This document shows, one piece after another, positions 107 through 44,205 of a stretch of DNA of 64,000 bases (positions are counted from its first letter, which is position 1; the number at the start of each line of letters is the position of its first letter). Source of the stretch: Singulisphaera sp. GP187 (GTDB taxonomy: Bacteria > Planctomycetota > Planctomycetia > Gemmatales > Gemmataceae); the NCBI GenBank assembly GCA_945905925.1, contig CAMDQN010000002.1, forward strand, positions 1 to 64,000, in the 5' to 3' direction. The translations under genes and the position numbers were made by a program. The notes below the pieces were generated by a model. That model saw only the letters and a program-made list of their open reading frames with translations, made no database searches and was not told the DNA's origin.

Positions 107-661
107 TCACCCCTTGCGCATCTGTTCCATCAACGCGACAACGAACGCCGGAAGATCATCGGGTGTGCGGCTCGTGATGATGTTACCATCGATGACCACC
201 TCTTGATCGGTGTAGGTTCCGCCCGCGTTCATCACGTCATCCTTGATGGAGTGAAAACACGTTACCTTGCGGCCCTTCAGCGGGGACTCACCTTGCGGTA
301 GTATTCTTGAACAAAGTACCCACGGACCGTGACAGATCGCCGCGACCGGCTTGCCCTGCGCGAGCGCGTCACGCACGAGTTTCATCATCGCTTCGCTACG
401 GCGGATGTAGTCGGGCGAGAAGCCGCCGGGGATCACGACCGCCGCGAAGTCGGTGGCGATCGCGTCCTTCGCGGCAAGTGTGGCCTTCGCGGGGTAGCCG
501 AGTTTGCTCGCGTAGGTCTTGCCGGCTTCCGGGCCGACCAGCTCGACCACGCACCCAGCCTCGCGCAGCCGGTACACCGGATACCACACTTCCATTTCTT
601 GGTATTGCTGCTCGACCAACACCGCGACGCGCTTACCGGTGAGGCTCATCGTGTTGCTCAT
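107..661 (-). CDS. DJ-1/PfpI family protein (type 1 glutamine amidotransferase-like)
   Basis: This 184-residue protein has the DJ-1/PfpI fold: the first strand RVAVLVEQQY, acidic residues near 22-24 (QEMEVWYP), and the nucleophile elbow AAICHGPW with Cys110-His111. The family includes intracellular peptidases, deglycase or chaperone-like enzymes and glyoxalase III, so the substrate cannot be told from sequence. I chose the ATG at 661 because it overlaps the TGA of the upstream methyltransferase gene (ATGA), which suggests translational coupling. A longer reading from 703 adds 14 residues with no family similarity. No signal peptide is visible, so the protein is probably cytoplasmic, unlike its exported partner. 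Confidence 0.88.
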   Translation of the reverse strand: MSNTMSLTGKRVAVLVEQQYQEMEVWYPVYRLREAGCVVELVGPEAGKTYASKLGYPAKATLAAKDAIATDFAAVVIPGGFSPDYIRRSEAMMKLVRDALAQGKPVAAICHGPWVLCSRILPQGESPLKGRKVTCFHSIKDDVMNAGGTYTDQEVVIDGNIITSRTPDDLPAFVVALMEQMRKG

Positions 662-1401
662 TTCTTCAGTTCCTTTTTGGTGAAGATGACGACGTGTTGC
701 CACGGCAGCGTGCCCACGGTCTTCGTGTGTGTCATCTCGGTGAACGCCGTCATCTCTTTCAACACCTGCCGCTCCGACATCTTGTGAACCAGTTTGATCA
801 GTACCTTGTCGTCTTCCAACTTGAACTCGACGAACACGAGCTTCCCGCCCGGCTTCAGCGCGTCCACCATCTTCTCCGTCATCTCGAACGGATACTTGAA
901 CTCGTGGTACACATCCACCAACAGAATGAGATCGACTTTGCCCGCGGGCAACTTTGGGTCAGTCTCGGTACCCTTCACCGTTTCGACGTTCGTCACCTTC
1001 TTGTCTTTCGCCTTCTTCGTCACCAAGTCGAGCATCTCTTGCTGAATGTCCGACGCGATCACTTTTCCCTTTGCGCCCACGAGAGGCGCGATCATGAACG
1101 TGTGGTAGCCGCTACCGGCGCCGACGTCCGCGACCACCATTCCCTCTTTCAGATCGAGTGACTTGATGAGCTTCTCGGGGTCTTCTTCCTTGATGCGCTC
1201 CTTGCGTTCGAGCCACCCCGCGGCGCCGAACCCCATCACGTGCGCGATCTCGCGACCCATGTAGACCTTGCCGATGCCATCGGGATCGTACTTCTCGGGG
1301 AACTCGTATTTCGGCTTCTCGCGCTTTTTCGGCGGCTCCTCCGCGATGCAAATGCCGCACGCGAGCGCCACCACGACCCCAATTGCTAACACGCGATTCA
1401 C
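658..1401 (-). CDS. Secreted class I SAM-dependent methyltransferase
   Basis: This 247-residue protein has an N-terminal signal peptide (residues 1-20, MNRVLAIGVVVALACGICIA) followed by a charged linker and a Rossmann-fold methyltransferase domain. Motif I is at about 91-100 (ADVGAGSGYH), followed by an acidic end of strand two (IASDIQQ) and the motif IV region LILLVDVYHE. Exported proteins of this type are common in planctomycetes and their substrate is unknown. The gene is the first of a two-gene unit; its stop overlaps the start of the PfpI-family gene. Methyltransferase fold is well supported; activity in the periplasm is an inference. Confidence 0.85.
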   Translation of the reverse strand: MNRVLAIGVVVALACGICIAEEPPKKREKPKYEFPEKYDPDGIGKVYMGREIAHVMGFGAAGWLERKERIKEEDPEKLIKSLDLKEGMVVADVGAGSGYHTFMIAPLVGAKGKVIASDIQQEMLDLVTKKAKDKKVTNVETVKGTETDPKLPAGKVDLILLVDVYHEFKYPFEMTEKMVDALKPGGKLVFVEFKLEDDKVLIKLVHKMSERQVLKEMTAFTEMTHTKTVGTLPWQHVVIFTKKELKK

Positions 1402-1479: not shown

Positions 1480-1507
1480 TTGACAATTCGAGTAGTTAAC
1501 CCATTAT
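1480..1507 (+). promoter_or_regulatory. Candidate sigma-70-type promoter before the phage head module
   Basis: A perfect TTGACA is followed after 16 bases by CATTAT (4 of 6 against TATAAT). The surrounding 1480-1535 stretch is markedly AT-rich (gttaacccattatcag, tacattatatcag) in an otherwise GC-rich region. It lies about 140 bases before the first gene of the head cluster and points toward it. This is read by eye only; no start site is known. Confidence 0.45.
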
Positions 1508-1645: not shown

Positions 1646-1921
1646 ATGCCCCACTGGTTGAGTTACACCTCGTACTCGTTGTACTTCGATGGGGCCGACA
1701 TGACCGAAGACGACACCGAGTTCCTGCTCGCGATCGCCGCCTACCAGAAGCGGCACGCCCGCCGCTATCCGACGATGCTCGAACTCCTCCACATCGCGCG
1801 CTGCCTGGGCTACCGCAAGGTCGCGGACGCGGTGCCGATCAATCAACCGATGCCGCCCGCGTCGGAGAAATCCGAAACTCGAAAATCGAAATCCGAAAGT
1901 GAAACCGAAGAGCCGGTGTGA
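1646..1921 (+). CDS. Small protein at the head of the phage module, possible winged-helix
   Basis: This 91-residue protein is not recognised with certainty. The middle (about 25-60: FLLAIAAYQKRHARRYPTML and the next 15 residues) has a pattern reminiscent of the LexA-type N-terminal winged helix, where a helix is followed by a YP turn and a second helix. The tail (residues 72-91) is rich in Lys, Ser and Glu and low in complexity. It begins about 80 bases before the portal gene on the same strand, the position where phages often carry a small terminase or a regulator, but no terminase signature is visible. The function is open. Confidence 0.55.
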   Translation: MPHWLSYTSYSLYFDGADMTEDDTEFLLAIAAYQKRHARRYPTMLELLHIARCLGYRKVADAVPINQPMPPASEKSETRKSKSESETEEPV

Positions 1922-2003
1922 CAGCCCGCGTCGGTGCCGCCCCCGTCTCCATTTCGGATTTCGTGCTTTCCACTTCCTGCTTATTCCCTCCGAAGGAGGC
2001 GTT

Positions 2004-3257
2004 ATGCCTTTCCTGTCGCGCCTACTCAAGGCGATCCGGCCGCCTGCGCCAAAGGTTCCGCCGCCGAAGATCGCGTCTGTGTTCGCGCCCGCGTACCCCG
2101 CGGCTGGGTGGTGGCACGACGACCCCGCCGAGCAGCTCCGCAACTACCGGTCGTGGGTGTACGCGGCCGTCAACGCGATCGCGCAAGAAGCCGCCCGGCA
2201 CAAGCCGTTCCTGTACCTGAACACCGGTCAGGCAGAACACGAGCAGACCGCGCTGCCACATACACACCCGCTGTGCAGGTTGCTCGATCGGCCAAACCCG
2301 TGGCTCACACCGTGGGAACTCTGGTACCTCACGACTGTGTACCTCGAACTGACGGGTAACGCTTTCTGGTACGTCGCTCCGCAGAGCATCGGTGATACGC
2401 GACTGAATACGCCAGGCGAAATCTGGATCATCCCGACGCCGTGGGTGAAGATCGTGCCGGATCGAACGCAGTACGTGAAGTCGTATCAGGTCGCGGCGCC
2501 CGGCGTGCCCGCGGAGACGTTCAGTTCCGACGAGATCATTCACCTGAAGTACCCGAACCCGCTCGACCCGCACTACGGGCTTTCGCCGCTTCAGGCCAAC
2601 GCACTCACGGTCGATGCGAACACCGAACTGCTAAAGTCGCGGTATCAGACGTTCCTCGCGGGCCAGCGCCCAGGCGTCGTGCTTCACACCGAGCAAACAC
2701 TCACCGATCAAACGGTGTCCAGGCTCGAAGAGAAGATCGCGTCCAAGTTCAGCGGGCGCGACAACTGGCACCGGCCGCTCGTACTCGAACAGGGATTGAA
2801 GGCGAGTCCGTGGACGCTCACGCCCGCGGAAATGGACTTCATGAACTCGTCGAAGATGACGCGTGACGAAATCCTCGCGGTGTTCCGCGTGCCGCCGCCG
2901 ATCACCGGCATCGTCGAGAACATGGGCCTCGGTGCGGACATCTGGTTCGGTGCGCGAGTGATGTTCTGCGAAGGAACAATTCAACCGAAACTTGATCTGA
3001 TCGGGCAAGCGCTGACACGCGACCTCGCCCGCCGCTACGGGCCGGACGCGGTGGTGAGTTTCCCGGACTGCTCGCCGCGCAACCTCGACCAGCGCCGCAA
3101 GGACGACGAACTCGACGCGCGGCTCGGACTGCGGACGTTCAACGAGATTCGGAAGAGTCGCGGTCTCGACCCGTTCCCGGACCCGCGGTTCGACAAGCCG
3201 ATCCTGCCGGCTTCGCTGGAAGAGAAGGGGAGAAGGGGAGAGGGGGAGAAAGGGTGA
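2004..3257 (+). CDS. Phage portal protein, HK97 type
   Basis: This 417-residue protein matches HK97-family portal proteins, which form the dodecameric ring at the capsid vertex. Features are the early RSWVYAAVNAIAQEAA helix, the EIWIIPTPWVKIVPD strand pair, the HLKYPNPLDPHYGLSPLQA segment, and the MTRDEILAVFRVPPPITGIV motif around residue 295. The start at 2004 has a strong ribosome binding site (gaaggaggcgtt). The C-terminus (LEEKGRRGEGEKG) is encoded by the left arm of a purine-rich intergenic repeat, so the repeat has replaced or extended the original tail. It precedes the protease and capsid genes in canonical head-gene order. Confidence 0.93.
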   Translation: MPFLSRLLKAIRPPAPKVPPPKIASVFAPAYPAAGWWHDDPAEQLRNYRSWVYAAVNAIAQEAARHKPFLYLNTGQAEHEQTALPHTHPLCRLLDRPNPWLTPWELWYLTTVYLELTGNAFWYVAPQSIGDTRLNTPGEIWIIPTPWVKIVPDRTQYVKSYQVAAPGVPAETFSSDEIIHLKYPNPLDPHYGLSPLQANALTVDANTELLKSRYQTFLAGQRPGVVLHTEQTLTDQTVSRLEEKIASKFSGRDNWHRPLVLEQGLKASPWTLTPAEMDFMNSSKMTRDEILAVFRVPPPITGIVENMGLGADIWFGARVMFCEGTIQPKLDLIGQALTRDLARRYGPDAVVSFPDCSPRNLDQRRKDDELDARLGLRTFNEIRKSRGLDPFPDPRFDKPILPASLEEKGRRGEGEKG

Positions 3258-3324
3258 ACAAACCCCAACCTTTCTTCTCACCCTTCATCCCTTCACCCTT
3301 GTCTCCCCCTTCTCCCCTTCTCTT
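3229..3324. repeat. Purine-rich GGGGAGAAG inverted repeat across the portal stop codon
   Basis: The left arm (about 3229-3256, repeats of gaaggggagaaggggag) reads in reverse complement at about 3294-3324 (tctcccccttctccccttct). The portal stop codon lies in the left arm. The same 9-base unit forms a longer tandem array at 19108-19250. Confidence 0.8.
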
Positions 3325-3338
3325 AAAAGAGGTGCCTC

Positions 3339-3947
3339 ATGTCTCCGTCCATTCGGGCCGATCCCGCCGCGCGCACGCTCAACATCGATGCCGCGAAGAT
3401 GCGAATTCGCAGCGTCATCACCACCATCGACCCCGACCGCGCCGGCGATGTGGTCGTGCCCACCGGGCTGAAAAACCTCGACGACTTCATGACGAACCCG
3501 GTCGTGCTCTGGGCGCACGATCGCGTTCGCGTGCCGCCGATCGGGTCGTGCGAGTGGATCGACATTCAGCCGCGGCGCATCGTCGCGGAGACGCGATTCG
3601 CGCAGCGCGTGCCCTTTGCCGAAAACCTGTTCAGTCTGTACGAGCAGAACGTGCTTCGCGGGTGGTCGATCGGGTTCGTGCCGCGGAAGGCGCGCCGCGT
3701 TCCCAGACCCGATGGCTCCACGTCGCTGTACGTCAGCGAGTGGGACTTGCTCGAATACTCCGCGGTTCCCATTCCCGAGAATCCCGGCGCGCTGACGGTC
3801 GCGATTCAAAAGGGGCTGATTCGCGATGTCACGCTCCGCGACTGGTTGCGGCTCGTGCCGGATGACCATGGCGGAGCGTGGTTCCGCGCGTTCGACGTGA
3901 TGAACGAGTTGGTCGAGACCGACGAGTCGCCGGTTCACAGCGAGTGA
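3339..3947 (+). CDS. HK97-family prohead protease
   Basis: This 202-residue protein resembles phage HK97 gp4-type prohead proteases (serine peptidase family S78), which cleave the scaffold or delta domain of the capsid during maturation. The N-terminal strand is followed by SVITTIDPDRAGDVVVPTGL, the catalytic-histidine region VVLWAHDR (residues 55-62) and the serine region VLRGWSIGF (about 107-115). The later SEWDLLEYSAVPIPENPGAL segment is also typical. It lies between portal and capsid genes, as in HK97. The catalytic His and Ser appear intact, so this is not obviously a dead copy. The start has a GAGGTG ribosome binding site. Confidence 0.92.
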   Translation: MSPSIRADPAARTLNIDAAKMRIRSVITTIDPDRAGDVVVPTGLKNLDDFMTNPVVLWAHDRVRVPPIGSCEWIDIQPRRIVAETRFAQRVPFAENLFSLYEQNVLRGWSIGFVPRKARRVPRPDGSTSLYVSEWDLLEYSAVPIPENPGALTVAIQKGLIRDVTLRDWLRLVPDDHGGAWFRAFDVMNELVETDESPVHSE

Positions 3948-3950
3948 TTC

Positions 3951-4005
3951 GTGGGGCAGGCCGCTGGCCTGCCAAAGTTTTCGGCAGGCCAGCGGCCTGC
4001 CCCAC
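3951..4005. repeat. Perfect 23-base inverted repeat between protease and capsid genes
   Basis: The arms 3951-3973 and 3983-4005 (gtggggcaggccgctggcct and 3 more bases, with the exact complement) enclose a 9-base loop. It starts 3 bases after the protease stop. Palindromes with a similar GTGGGGTGGG-type outer part occur elsewhere in the window, so it looks like a chromosomal repeat rather than a phage element. Confidence 0.85.
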
Positions 4006-4034
4006 ACCAGAACCCATTTCCCGAGAGGCTTTCC

Positions 4035-5411
4035 ATGTCCACCACTGCGTTACCGACCGACAAGTTCCAGTCTCGCGACGAGCTGGTGACGTTCATCGAG
4101 CAACAGGCCACGACCGCCGTCGAGAAGGCGACCCGCGTGGAGCGCCGCGTGCCGTGGGTCACGTCAGGGCCGGTGTGCGCCGACTCCGCCGGGTACAGCG
4201 TGCTGAAGGCTGCCGCGTTCGCGCTCGGGTTCGTCGGCGCGGACCAGGCGAAGGAAGAGATTCACGCGCACCAGCAACTCCGCGACCTCTACGCCGGATA
4301 CGGCTTCGCCCCGCACCACGGGCAGCAGTCGTTCCTGGTTCCGCTTGCGTCAGCGCACCTGCCGGTGTTCGAGCCGCAGGGCCGCCGGTTGCGAGACGAA
4401 CTTCACCAGAAGATGACCGCCCACGCGGAGAAGTACGACCCGGACGAAGCCGACTGGATCGGGCGCCGTCTCAACCCGCTCCGCAAGGCGCTCGGCACGA
4501 TTACCGACACCGCGGGCGGCTCGATGGTGCCGCTCCCGATGCTCGGCGAACTCATCGACCTTCAGCGCAGTCTCGAAGTGTTCGCGACCGCCGGGGCGCG
4601 CGAAGTGGCGCTGCCACCGAACGGCCGCGTGCAGTTCCCCAAACTCACCGCCGCGAGCAGCGCGTACTGGGTCGGCGAGGGGACCGCGATCACCGAGAGC
4701 CAGCCGACAACCGGGAACCTCGACCTTCAGGCGAAGAAGCTCGGTGTCTTGGTGAAGCTCAACAACGAACTGCTCCGGTTCGCGTCTCCGAGTGCGGAAG
4801 GTTTGGTCAGGCTGGATATGGCCCGTGCCGCGGCGCTGAAGGCCGATCTCGCGATGCTCGAAGGGACCGGTGGCACGCAGATCAAGGGTGTCACCACCTA
4901 CAGCGGCATCGCGACACACACCGCGAGCACCACCGGCGCGAACGGCGACACGTTCACCCCGGCCGACATCGCGACGATGGAGAGCAAGTTGCCGGACGCG
5001 GTGGAAGCGCCGACCGCGTGGGTGCTGCGGAAAGCGATGTACGCGGCGCTCATGAACCGGCGCGCCGATGCCGTGAGCGCCGCCGACGGTAAGGGGCCGT
5101 TCCTGTTCCGCGACATGCGGTCGGTCGGGTCCGGCCCGCCGGCCGAACTGTACGGCACGCGTGTGGTGCGGTCGGCGCAGGTGTCGGCGGCGCGCGTGAA
5201 GGGCAGCGGCACAAACCTCACGTACATGCTGTTGGGATACTTCCCAGACTGGATCGTCGCCCGGATGGGCGTGATGGAGTTCCTCGCGAGCGGCCTCGGC
5301 GACACCGCGCTCCAGAACGACATGACGTACCTTCGCGGTATTCAGCACATCGACGCCGGCCCGCGCCACGCGGCGAGCTTCGTGCTCTGCGACCAGTTGC
5401 TCGTCGCGTGA
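4035..5411 (+). CDS. Major capsid protein, HK97 fold
   Basis: This 458-residue protein carries the HK97-type capsid domain from about residue 150: the GGSMVPLPMLGELIDLQRSL entry, the AYWVGEGTAITESQPTTGNL E-loop/strand region, the KKLGVLVKLNNELLRFASPS segment, the LEGTGGTQIKGV helix turn and the LYGTRVVRSAQV strand. The roughly 150 residues before it are helical and charged, as expected for a delta (scaffold) domain removed by the adjacent protease. I chose the ATG at 4035, after an agaggct ribosome binding site; the upstream extension would translate the palindrome. The length is normal for a capsid gene with a delta domain. Confidence 0.94.
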   Translation: MSTTALPTDKFQSRDELVTFIEQQATTAVEKATRVERRVPWVTSGPVCADSAGYSVLKAAAFALGFVGADQAKEEIHAHQQLRDLYAGYGFAPHHGQQSFLVPLASAHLPVFEPQGRRLRDELHQKMTAHAEKYDPDEADWIGRRLNPLRKALGTITDTAGGSMVPLPMLGELIDLQRSLEVFATAGAREVALPPNGRVQFPKLTAASSAYWVGEGTAITESQPTTGNLDLQAKKLGVLVKLNNELLRFASPSAEGLVRLDMARAAALKADLAMLEGTGGTQIKGVTTYSGIATHTASTTGANGDTFTPADIATMESKLPDAVEAPTAWVLRKAMYAALMNRRADAVSAADGKGPFLFRDMRSVGSGPPAELYGTRVVRSAQVSAARVKGSGTNLTYMLLGYFPDWIVARMGVMEFLASGLGDTALQNDMTYLRGIQHIDAGPRHAASFVLCDQLLVA

Positions 5412-5418
5412 TTCGCAG

Positions 5419-5466
5419 AGACCCACCCCCGGCCCCTCCCTGCAGGGAGGGGCCGGGGGTAGGTCT
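5419..5466. repeat. Inverted repeat after the capsid gene (ACCCACCCCCGGCCCCTCCC family)
   Basis: A nearly perfect palindrome centred on ctgcag at 5440-5445, with arms of about 20 bases. The same sequence in open form flanks a spacer at 27527-27639. It may act as a terminator or stability hairpin inside the head operon. Confidence 0.8.
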
Positions 5467-5502
5467 TCTTCCCCACCTTCCCTCATCTTAAGGAACCTTC
5501 CC

Positions 5503-5877
5503 ATGTCCACACACGTGAACGATCTTACTTCCGGTGTCGCGGTGTACGGCGCGCTGGTGCCGGCCGTGCGCACCGCGAGCGTGAACGGGTCCGCGATCGA
5601 CCTCATCGCCGCCGATGGGTCGTGCTTCGCGATCCAACAGATCGGCGCGATTTCCGAAGACGTCTCCTGGGCCGGTCACATCGAGGAGTCCTCCGATAGC
5701 TCGTCTTGGTCCGCGATCGACGACGCCGAGTTCGTCGCGGTGGACGCGATCAACAACGTCCAGACGATCACCTTTCGGCGCACCAAGCGCTACGTGCGGT
5801 ACGTCGGCACCGTGAGCGGGGTCGATCCCTCCGTGCCCGTGTCGGCCCTCATCGGCGAACAGTTCAAGACGTTTTAA
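5503..5877 (+). CDS. Small phage structural protein, possible decoration or neck protein
   Basis: This 124-residue protein lies between the capsid and connector genes. Residues 45-115 are beta-rich, with the pattern FAIQQIGAISEDVSW, SSWSAIDDAEFV and ITFRRTKRYVRYVGTVSG. Many phage cassettes have a small protein in this position with the same SSDSSSW and KRYVR type strands. I cannot assign a specific role; a capsid decoration or head-completion protein fits the place. It has its own start at 5503 after a short leader (aaggaacc). Confidence 0.7.
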   Translation: MSTHVNDLTSGVAVYGALVPAVRTASVNGSAIDLIAADGSCFAIQQIGAISEDVSWAGHIEESSDSSSWSAIDDAEFVAVDAINNVQTITFRRTKRYVRYVGTVSGVDPSVPVSALIGEQFKTF

Positions 5878-5881
5878 CCCC

Positions 5882-5953
5882 GTCTCAAGTCTGCAAGTCT
5901 CAAGTCCCAAGTCAAAGACAGCCTTCTGGACTTGAGACTTGCAGACTTGAGAC
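5882..5953. repeat. GACTTGAGACTT-family inverted repeat, copy 1
   Basis: Arms 5882-5907 and 5928-5953 are complementary over 26 bases and are built from the unit gacttgagactt. Related copies lie at 13094-13177 and 25598-25677. It sits between two head-module genes. Confidence 0.85.
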
Positions 5954-5978
5954 TTGAGACTTCTCCGAAGGAGAAGCC

Positions 5979-6578
5979 ATGATCGATACCCTCGCCGACG
6001 TGAAGACCGCTCTGATGATAAGCGGCAGCGACGACGACGCGATCCTGACGCGACTGCTGGACGGTGCGGACGTTTTCATCACGGAACACACCGGGCGCAA
6101 CTTCGCGGGCGGAACGTTCACCGAAACGCACGCGGCCAGCGCCGAAACGCTGTTCCTGCGCAACTTCCCGGTGGAGAGCGTCACCAGCGTGAAGGTGGAC
6201 CCAGCGCGAGCGTTCGGGTCCGACACCGTGCGCGCCGCGGACACCTACATTCTTCACGCGGATCGCGGGCTGATCACGTCGCTGACGGGACCGTTTCTCT
6301 CGCCTCGCGGGCGGCGCGACGACTGGCCCGGTTGCGTGCAGGTCGTGTACGCCACCACGACCGACGCCGTGCCCGCACCGGTGAAGGAAGCGTTCACCCA
6401 ACTCATCGGGCACTGGTATCGGCAGGCGAAGACGTTCGCGGACCAAGAGCACCAGATGCTGTTGGAGCGGACCGACGGCACCGACGCGAAGGTGTGGTCG
6501 TGGAGCCTCGCGAGCGGGCTGAAACTCCCGATCAGCGCGCTGGAGTTGCTCAAGCCGTACCGCGTTCCGCCGGTGTGA
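5979..6578 (+). CDS. Phage gp6-like head-tail connector protein
   Basis: This 199-residue protein resembles the gp6-like head-tail connector family. The N-terminus (VKTALMISGSDDDAILTRLL, then ADVFITEHTGRNF) is the typical helical start, and the FLRNFPVESVTSVKVD strand and the late helix VPAPVKEAFTQLIGHWYRQA complete the family pattern. It follows the capsid gene as in HK97-like phages and has an aaggag ribosome binding site at 5966-5971. No head-closure, tail-completion, tail-tube or tape-measure gene follows; the next gene is a host-type secreted protein. Confidence 0.85.
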   Translation: MIDTLADVKTALMISGSDDDAILTRLLDGADVFITEHTGRNFAGGTFTETHAASAETLFLRNFPVESVTSVKVDPARAFGSDTVRAADTYILHADRGLITSLTGPFLSPRGRRDDWPGCVQVVYATTTDAVPAPVKEAFTQLIGHWYRQAKTFADQEHQMLLERTDGTDAKVWSWSLASGLKLPISALELLKPYRVPPV

Positions 6579-8454: not shown

Positions 8455-9111
8455 GTGACTAAGGTGGATTCACCAAGTTGCAACAACCACCCCGAGCACA
8501 GCCGGACGAGCCGCGTGACCCGTGAACCAGAGCCAACCCTCCCCAACGAGGAGGCCGAATGGATACGGGCCGCCCAGAACGGCGACCGGGCCGCGTTCGC
8601 GCGACTCATCGACAGCTACTGGGGCCGCCTGTACCGCTGGCTCTACCACCTGACGCGCGACCGACACGCGGCCGAAGACCTGACCCAAGAAACCTTCCTC
8701 CGGGCGCTCGCGGCGCTGAAGTCGTTTAGGCCCGGCAGTAACTTCCGGGCGTGGGTGTTCCGCATCGGGCACAACAACTTTGTGAATCAGAAGCGAGCCG
8801 AACGGCGCACGAAACACCAACTCCCTGACGATGCCGCGGCACCCGGGGAAGGAAACGTCGAGAGCAGCGCCGAGAACCGCGAGGCACTCGAAGTGGTGAT
8901 GCGGGCCGTGGCCGATCTTCCGGCTGACTTCCAAGCGGCGCTCTTGTTGAACAGCGTCGAGGGGATGTCCCACCGCGAAGTCGCGAAGGTGCTCGGCACT
9001 ACGGAAGAAACCGCCCGGTGGCGGGTGTTCAAGGCCCGCCAGAAGTTAATGAAAGTGCTCTCGCCGGAGTTGTTACCGCCGGGAGCAGTTTCGGAAGAGG
9101 CGAAAGAGTAA
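8455..9111 (+). CDS. ECF-type RNA polymerase sigma factor
   Basis: This 218-residue protein has sigma-70 region 2 at about 48-116 (FARLIDSYWGRLYRWLYHL, AAEDLTQETFLRAL, NFRAWVFRIGHNNFVN) and region 4 at about 148-200 (LPADFQAALLLNSVEGMSHR, EVAKVLGTTEETARWRVFKA). It lacks regions 1 and 3, as in extracytoplasmic-function factors. The assigned start is GTG at 8455; a second GTG at 8464 is possible, since the first 30 residues are low in similarity to the family. The zinc-type anti-sigma gene downstream is its likely regulator. Confidence 0.93.
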   Translation: MTKVDSPSCNNHPEHSRTSRVTREPEPTLPNEEAEWIRAAQNGDRAAFARLIDSYWGRLYRWLYHLTRDRHAAEDLTQETFLRALAALKSFRPGSNFRAWVFRIGHNNFVNQKRAERRTKHQLPDDAAAPGEGNVESSAENREALEVVMRAVADLPADFQAALLLNSVEGMSHREVAKVLGTTEETARWRVFKARQKLMKVLSPELLPPGAVSEEAKE

Positions 9112-27526: not shown

Positions 27527-27639
27527 AACCCACCCCCGACCCCTCCCTACAGGTAAGGGGAGCAAAACACTCGACGAACCGCGAACATCGTGCGCAAATT
27601 CTTTCTCCCCTCCCTGCAGGGAGGGGTCGGGGGTGGGTT
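27527..27639. repeat. ACCCACCCCCGACCCCTCCC inverted repeat, open copy
   Basis: The left arm 27527-27552 and right arm 27614-27639 are complementary except for one mismatch and enclose about 60 unrelated bases. The same sequence forms a closed palindrome at 5419-5466. It lies between the secreted protein and the MFS transporter gene. Confidence 0.8.
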
Positions 27640-42939: not shown

Positions 42940-43044
42940 GGCAACGCTCCTCATTCCCCAACGCTCGCCTTCGGCTTGCGGCTAACGGAGTGGAACCTGA
43001 CTTCGTCTGCGCCTATCAAGATAGGTAACCACGAGAGTTACAGC

Positions 43045-43416
43045 ATGGAACCGACCGAAACGCCATCCGTCGAGCAGTTGGAGACGTTCCCGAACCCGCG
43101 ACCGGGCCGCGAGTTCTCTGTCGAAATCGTCTGCCCAGAGTTCACAAGCGTGTGCCCGAAGACCGGTCAGCCGGACTTCGGCGTCATTACTTTCACATAC
43201 ACGCCTGGCGAAACGTGCGTCGAACTGAAGTCACTGAAGCTCTACCTGCAGCGGTTCCGCGACCAGGGCATCTTCTACGAACAGGTGACGAACCAACTGC
43301 TCGACGACTTCGTGGCCGCGTGCAAGCCGGTGCGGTGCAAGGTGGTGTCGGTGTGGACGCCCCGCGGCGGCATCACGACCAAAGTGGTGTGCGAGTACGA
43401 AGCCGCGAGGAAGTGA
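43045..43416 (+). CDS. queF: NADPH-dependent 7-cyano-7-deazaguanine reductase
   Basis: This 123-residue protein is a short (unimodular) QueF, which reduces preQ0 to preQ1 for queuosine. The active-site Cys is in FTSVCPKTGQPDFGVITF, and the typical ELKSLKLYLQRFRDQGIFYE segment with its Glu follows. T-fold members of this length form decamers. It is divergent from queC with a short spacer; queD and queE are not in the window. Confidence 0.95.
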   Translation: MEPTETPSVEQLETFPNPRPGREFSVEIVCPEFTSVCPKTGQPDFGVITFTYTPGETCVELKSLKLYLQRFRDQGIFYEQVTNQLLDDFVAACKPVRCKVVSVWTPRGGITTKVVCEYEAARK

Positions 43417-43419
43417 CGC

Positions 43420-43481
43420 TTGCAGATTTGTGATTGACGACTTCGTGAAGGTCTTCTCGATCGTCGGTCACAAATCTGCAA
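43420..43481. terminator. Hairpin between convergent queF and BON genes
   Basis: Arms at 43420-43440 and 43461-43481 (ttgcagatttgtgattgacg and near complement) pair with one mismatch around a 20-base loop. It lies right after the queF stop and may end both convergent transcripts. Confidence 0.55.
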
Positions 43482-43491
43482 TCGAAAATGT

Positions 43492-43698
43492 CTACTCGAC
43501 GACGATGGCGTTTTCGAGACGGGCGTTCGGGAGCGCTTCACGCGCGCCCTGTTGAGCGAGTTGCTTGACGTGGTAGGAGTTGACCTGACCGCGGAGGACG
43601 ACGCGGTCCCCGCTGGTTGCAATTTCAACCTCGAGGTTCTTCACCCGGTGGTTGGTGCGGACGGCAACGCTTTGTGTAACAATCTCAAGGAGCGACAT
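43492..43698 (-). CDS. Small BON-domain protein
   Basis: This 68-residue protein is almost only a BON domain: NHRVKNLEVEIATSGDRVVL, RGQVNSYHVKQLAQQGAREA, LPNARLENAIVVE, with the central RGQV glycine. BON domains bind phospholipids or other proteins. There is no signal peptide, so it is cytoplasmic. A longer reading to 43800 adds 34 unrelated residues; the ATG at 43698 fits. Confidence 0.75.
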   Translation of the reverse strand: MSLLEIVTQSVAVRTNHRVKNLEVEIATSGDRVVLRGQVNSYHVKQLAQQGAREALPNARLENAIVVE

Positions 43699-43815
43699 AG
43701 CGGTTGTACTCTTCGGTCCTTCGTGCTTCGCGGTGTTGCGCGGACGCCAGACAAGAATTCCCGGTTTCCGGTCGTGTAAGTGGCGCCAGAAATATTCCAA
43801 AGCTTATTGAACCCG

Positions 43816-44205
43816 ATGCAAACAGCACTTCAAAATCAACGTTCTTCTTCGGAACTCCTCACGCTGCGCGGTTTCCGACCACTGTTCGCTGAGGAGTTGC
43901 GCACGCGGATCGCGGCTGGTGCCCGGTGTGTTCGTTTCGAGTTCTGCTTTTCCTTGTTCTTCGTGACCATACGACGACAGTCTGAAGTATACCTCACAAG
44001 TTCCTGGCACCAGCGCTATTTGTGGGGCTTGTGGTACAGTTTCCTCGCATTCCTGCTCGGGCCGTGGGGCGTTCCCTGGGGTCTGCTCTGGACGCCGTGG
44101 GCCATCTGGGTGAACACCAGTGGCGGCGTTGACTGTACCGCGGACGTACTCGCGGCGCTGGAAACGTTTAGAACGGGGTCCGCTCAGGGGCAAGGCGATT
44201 CCTGA
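43816..44205 (+). CDS. Tryptophan-rich small protein with membrane segment
   Basis: This 129-residue protein has a core of CVRFEFCFSLFFVTIRRQSE, VYLTSSWHQRYLWGLWYSFL and LGPWGVPWGLLWTPWAIWVN, with a transmembrane segment in the WYSFLAFLLGPWGVPWGLLW part. The same layout is known to me from uncharacterised proteins in planctomycetes and myxobacteria. I have no function to give. The start may be ATG 43816 or GTG 43780; neither has a strong ribosome binding site. Confidence 0.68.
   Translation: MQTALQNQRSSSELLTLRGFRPLFAEELRTRIAAGARCVRFEFCFSLFFVTIRRQSEVYLTSSWHQRYLWGLWYSFLAFLLGPWGVPWGLLWTPWAIWVNTSGGVDCTADVLAALETFRTGSAQGQGDS

Follow-up and report, generated by a model that had tools for sequence, protein, structure and literature searches.

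Domesticated capsids have so far been known either as bare shells, the encapsulins, or as near-complete DNA-transfer particles, the gene transfer agents (GTAs). Head genes without tails also occur in the capsid-forming phage-inducible chromosomal islands (cfPICI), which are mobile and carry an integrase and a terminase. Encapsulins have a dedicated means of loading cargo into their shells (PMC8346489), and RcGTA of the alphaproteobacteria comprises a head-tail cluster along with a large terminase (PMC7947584). The first 64,000 nucleotides of contig CAMDQN010000002.1 of Singulisphaera sp. GP187 (family Gemmataceae, phylum Planctomycetota; GenBank assembly GCA_945905925.1), hereafter the window, contain a head-gene module that resembles each of these systems in part. 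This set, at positions 2004 to 6578 on the plus strand, encodes an intact HK97-type portal, an S78 protease, a major capsid protein (MCP), a jelly-roll protein, and a gp6-like connector; all open reading frames (ORFs) are open, and host genes flank it directly on both sides. No head module of this kind from Gemmataceae or other planctomycetes was found in the open-access literature (subscription papers were not covered). It is very probable, judging from sequence, that this head set is domesticated and has no motor of its own, and rather probable that it is a vertically inherited phage head operon making a host-owned capsid. The cells probably build this phage-like shell of protein for their own use.

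In profile searches, the head genes score far above chance level, which bears out the preliminary description of HK97 head genes in canonical order. The 417-aa portal protein (positions 2004 to 3257) matches Pfam family PF04860 (1e-53) and has orthologs that are 66 to 96% identical. It is followed by the prohead maturation protease (3339 to 3947; PF04586, 8.7e-6; phrog_80, 3.5e-18), the 458-aa MCP (4035 to 5411; PF05065, 7.7e-32), a 124-aa jelly-roll protein, here called s124 (5503 to 5877; phrog_5707, a family of unknown function, 2.9e-15), and the 199-aa head-tail connector, or adaptor (5979 to 6578; PF05135, 1.5e-8; phrog_442, 4.9e-23), all on the plus strand. The presumed catalytic residues of the protease, His60 and Ser110, whose regions had been described as apparently intact, are invariant in all 31 copies compared, as are Asp37 and Glu139. 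The MCP most likely starts with the ATG at 4035; the searches used a start at 4029, so that the MCP residue numbers given here are +2 relative to the former. Its sequence profile assigns it to the Pfam Phage_capsid family of HK97-fold proteins. The N-terminal part, which is strongly conserved in an alignment, is likely the counterpart of the HK97 delta domain and would fit a working scaffold and protease substrate.

Portal searches of 95 Gemmataceae genomes identified a close ortholog in 33 of them and a broken one in G051; the remaining portal matches in these genomes are 24 to 35% identical and resemble ordinary prophages. MCP searches returned the same genomes plus G091. Altogether, approximately 35 of the 95 genomes, from 13 genera, carry the module, with orthologs that are 66 to 97% identical and an identical gene order wherever the contigs are long enough. 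The full set is also present in the Gemmataceae bacterium isolate CJuql4 (LR594585.1). Among 84,980 species scanned, 28 loci were found, all of them from Gemmataceae as judged by titles and matching contigs, and the best MCP match in the wider phylum is 38% identical. Most of these genomes are metagenome bins, and some absences may be gaps; true absence is supported in G009 to G012, G026, and G074, which are complete or consist of few contigs. A second, more divergent head set (74%) at G047:C316:12051-13409 may be a real second copy or bin contamination. Among the IMG/VR uncultivated virus genomes (UViGs) L098 to L117 (4 to 10 kb), at least 15 “viral” contigs resemble the host chromosomal locus, some with host neighbors. 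Virus catalogs thus list a host locus as viral, and counts of planctomycete viruses can be distorted.

In an rpoB tree of 60 genomes, every carrier falls within a single 45-genome clade (support 99), and none of the 15 genomes outside this clade has the module. A tree of the portal, protease, and MCP from 30 taxa shares 21 of its 27 splits with the rpoB tree, compared with a mean of 0.26 and a maximum of 4 shared splits in 1,000 label shuffles. There are no conflicting splits at support of 90 or higher, and patristic path lengths in the two trees correlate at 0.93, with the head genes evolving at 1.75 times the rate of RpoB. Because of this congruence, the module is judged from these trees, built in quick mode, to be inherited vertically. 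Median within-genus dN/dS values (Nei-Gojobori) are 0.10 for the portal, 0.12 for the MCP, 0.24 for the protease, 0.32 for s124, and 0.34 for the connector; the values for three host neighbors are 0.23, 0.135, and 0.13, comparable to those of the portal, MCP, and protease. By these estimates, the module has been maintained at a dN/dS near 0.1 from the ancestor of no fewer than 13 genera onward. Domestication, as proposed in the preliminary description, agrees well with a terminase-free set that is found in 13 genera, often between the same host genes, and with purifying selection on the portal and MCP.

A decaying prophage remnant or a recently arrived phage satellite would fit a locus that has no integrase, lysis, or tail genes and that is broken in some genomes. 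The preliminary description, which saw open frames and no simple decay, had named relaxed selection and broken copies in relatives as counterevidence; broken copies do exist (in G051, G087, and G015) but are a minority among the carriers, and selection is purifying. Most carriers have intact frames, dN/dS is close to 0.1, the trees agree, and the neighbors are the same in several genera with no mobility gene; a remnant or satellite is therefore barely credible. In an ordinary prophage, the head genes would be accompanied by a terminase, an integrase, and lysis genes; here, host genes are found in these positions, and terminase profiles are negative in the source genome. The module is similar to cfPICI in having its own head genes and no tails, but no integrase was found between the host flanks and no terminase by the profiles used, and the tree congruence indicates vertical inheritance instead of mobility.

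The terminase, reported in the preliminary description to be missing beside the portal, was searched for with the profiles PF03354 and PF03237 (12 carriers), PF17289 (21 carriers), and PF04466 (15 carriers), and positive controls were included for every profile. All four profiles gave zero matches in the source genome (G000), in G013, G024, G052, and G072, and in G071, a single contig that is 99% complete; the GpA family was outside this search. The tape measure profile PF10145 stayed below the cutoff in all 15 carriers searched, including the source genome and G071, with other tail families outside the search. Thus, neither a complementary terminase nor a tape measure protein was detected elsewhere in the source genome by these five profiles. 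Because all five are negative both there and in G071, the head set is, by this measure, maintained without a recognizable packaging motor. Terminases do occur in some other carriers (G016, G021, G022, G023, G053, G054, and G067), where they are scattered and belong to different families; the one in G087 is located in an inserted element.

These results bear directly on the GTA-like particle considered in the preliminary description. The portal, protease, MCP, and connector follow each other in the same order as in known GTAs and phages, and GTAs, like the module, are typically inherited vertically and kept under purifying selection. In all these respects the module is like RcGTA, a set of domesticated tailed-phage genes on the chromosome. 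An autonomous GTA with its terminase and tail encoded at other loci is, however, quite improbable, as the terminase profiles are negative in the six genomes listed above, the terminases of other carriers are scattered and from different families, and the tape measure profile is below the cutoff. The particle is not supported as originally worded, since the terminase and tail that define it were not found by these profiles. The module further differs from RcGTA in the absence of a tail cluster at the locus, in the host phylum, and in its MCP, which is related to those of planctomycete phages.

The phage relatives of the MCP are found in IMG/VR contigs (L118, L119, L121, L122, L125, L127, and L132), at 42 to 59% identity. 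The closest, L118 (UViG 3300045107_000301; MCP identity, 59%), is a true phage that encodes a terminase, portal, protease, s124 homolog, phrog_442 connector, head closure protein, tape measure protein, and tail fiber. It has the MCP, s124-like, and connector genes in the same order as the module but differs in its much longer portal ORF and in the presence of the terminase, head closure, tape measure, and tail fiber genes; L119, L121, L122, and L127 are likewise similar in the MCP (50 to 59% including L118). All host MCPs, together with those from 15 short IMG/VR contigs resembling the host locus, form one clade against ten phage MCPs (support 88). As the host copies all group on one side of the branch, the tree fits a single domestication event. 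The donor's portal is not represented among these phages, because their portals are only approximately 24 to 30% identical to that of the module.

On the model of the HK97 pathway, the MCP would assemble around the portal, its delta-type N-terminal region serving as an internal scaffold, the protease would cut this region off, and the shell would then mature; s124, where present, would decorate the shell, and the connector would cap the portal vertex. If there is no motor, DNA would not enter the mature head in the ordinary way, and the simplest product would be a sealed shell whose portal vertex is capped. As such filling is not expected, the most likely product would be a closed, portal-gated compartment whose cargo, protein or nucleic acid, is taken in while the shell assembles or by way of the portal. 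Our preferred reading is therefore one already suggested in the preliminary description, a shell with contents other than phage DNA, although we hold a compartment, as opposed to a head that depends on a helper phage, only tentatively, at somewhat less than even chances.

Encapsulins, for comparison, are cell-owned HK97-fold shells that are thought to derive from phages. The module shares with them an HK97-fold shell protein, as predicted by PF05065, but not the stand-alone shell; it retains the portal, maturation protease, delta-type region, and connector, and its MCP belongs to the Phage_capsid family. Of the neighboring genes, p91 (described below) is the only one linked to the shell genes across genera, and it does not correspond to any known cargo enzyme; no further conserved operon partner was found beyond p91 and the host landmark genes, in a neighbor clustering that was noisy owing to shadow ORFs. 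A head set with a portal vertex and no recognizable motor would be intermediate between encapsulins and GTAs and has a fair chance of meriting its own class among domesticated capsids. The architecture is well supported. That it represents a third class of domesticated HK97 capsid, portal-bearing, protease-matured, terminase-free, and vertically inherited in a clade of Gemmataceae, functioning as a compartment with a gate or as a head reliant on a foreign motor, we rate as nearly an even prospect. If true, it would demonstrate that a portal capsid can have a function in which ordinary packaging plays no part.

Several points weigh against a domesticated compartment. It is hard to see why a compartment through which no DNA ever passes would have a portal and a connector. 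A terminase of the GpA type or another family, or an unknown motor, could exist. The single MCP clade, with its support of 88, comes from a quick tree with long phage branches. Finally, 13 genomes within the 45-genome clade lack the module, which requires approximately ten losses and makes the set dispensable in some lineages.

The retention of the portal and connector, the parts that contact the terminase and the tail, would be expected if the host supplied portal-bearing heads that were filled and tailed by the terminase and tails of a phage, whether infecting the cell or resident in it; such heads would either transport host DNA or act as a defense by depriving the phage of parts. Within the 45-genome clade, the genomes that lack an intact module are the larger ones (median, 10.1 versus 6.2 Mb; P = 2e-5, uncorrected for kinship), and several of them (G094, G006, G009, and G012) each contain at least three foreign portals, as expected if the module restrains mobile DNA. 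Elements inserted within the head genes in G087, in G015, and in one IMG/VR contig point in the same direction. However, the link to genome size is suggestive only: it holds in 8 of 10 sister pairs (P = 0.11), which does not show it to be independent of kinship, and the comparison is confounded by isolates versus metagenome bins. Use of a foreign terminase is also not obvious, because the module portal is only 24 to 35% identical to the phage and prophage portals of Gemmataceae and IMG/VR. Helper-dependent heads are thus unlikely, if less so than an autonomous GTA, and the portal-gated compartment remains the preferred product.

The inserted elements show some regularity in their location. In G087 (L045 and L069), an element of approximately 14.3 kb, which brings its own portal and a terminase fragment, lies inside the capsid gene, as does an element of approximately 24.5 kb in IMG/VR contig 3300037479_000622 (L221 and L123); the two insertions are approximately five codons or less apart, at capsid codons 240 to 245. 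A 16-kb element in G015 (L159) interrupts the protease gene beside the His motif. The 12-bp direct repeat AACCCGGTCGTC at each of its ends suggests site-specific integration.

The portal, protease, MCP, and connector form the constant core of the module, the connector being present in every unbroken locus of sufficient length. In contrast to this core, s124 has been lost from several carrier genera: G052 and G053 have no space for it (gaps of 75 to 77 bases), G067, G072, and G073 do not contain it, and in G008 it is unrecognized. Its predicted structure is a beta sandwich (AlphaFold, pLDDT 87.6), and its best structural matches are small phage proteins, one of them from phage PPpW-3, whose capsid protein also matches the module MCP by sequence; matches to PDB folds are weak and unspecific. 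From this model, s124 is probably a capsid decoration protein.

The preliminary description had grouped six genes, counting among the head set a 91-residue protein, here called p91 (1646 to 1921, plus strand). This protein, a helical hairpin by its predicted model of two helices (median dN/dS, 0.33), proved to be a host-family paralog and not a phage gene. Its family has a member in 91 of 102 Gemmatales genomes, and carriers have a second copy, placed before the portal; p91 thereby accompanies the head genes in nearly all of them. It is not strictly required, because the genus mates G009 to G012 and G026 lack the head genes and retain p91 beside the same methyltransferase, and the complete genome G071 has the head genes without p91. 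A role as small terminase was considered and ruled out, given the occurrence of the family in 91 of the 102 genomes and the at least five genus mates that hold p91 in place without heads. It is a candidate regulator or adaptor.

The window begins at the start of the 119.5-kb contig, and the same upstream neighbors are found in relatives on longer contigs. As first described, the flanks are direct host genes: a DJ-1/PfpI protein and a methyltransferase with a signal peptide (658 to 1401, minus strand) upstream, and a DUF1559 protein and a sigma-factor-like protein (8455 to 9111, plus strand) downstream. The methyltransferase and the sigma-factor-like gene are host landmarks outside the module that recur beside it in several genera, the former diverging from it in about half of the examined loci. 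No integrase or other mobility gene was found between the flanks, and no lysis or tail genes at the locus. Scans for promoters, terminators, and Rfam families revealed no strong regulatory signal in the region. A candidate operon promoter, TTGACA-16-CATTAT (1480 to 1507, plus strand), lies in the AT-rich gap 5′ of the p91 gene; it is a consensus match only (10 of 12 positions), and three such sites were observed in the region versus 0.8 expected. The protease-MCP spacer contains an inverted repeat with confirmed arms (3951 to 4003), and the MCP-s124 spacer contains a 16-bp hairpin (5425 to 5460), which is probably a host-type intergenic repeat, because its core recurs at 27607 to 27626.

Two further observations concern other sequences. 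The ORF at positions 5061 to 5498 of L160 (minus strand) and its homologs form a small, Gemmatales-wide host protein family that has no Pfam family and displays an EFxxAxxxYxxxxRRxPTWxEVLxVLxxLGYRK-like motif. Within the window, the local G+C content falls to 0.57 at positions 43001 to 44000, versus approximately 0.64 in the surroundings.

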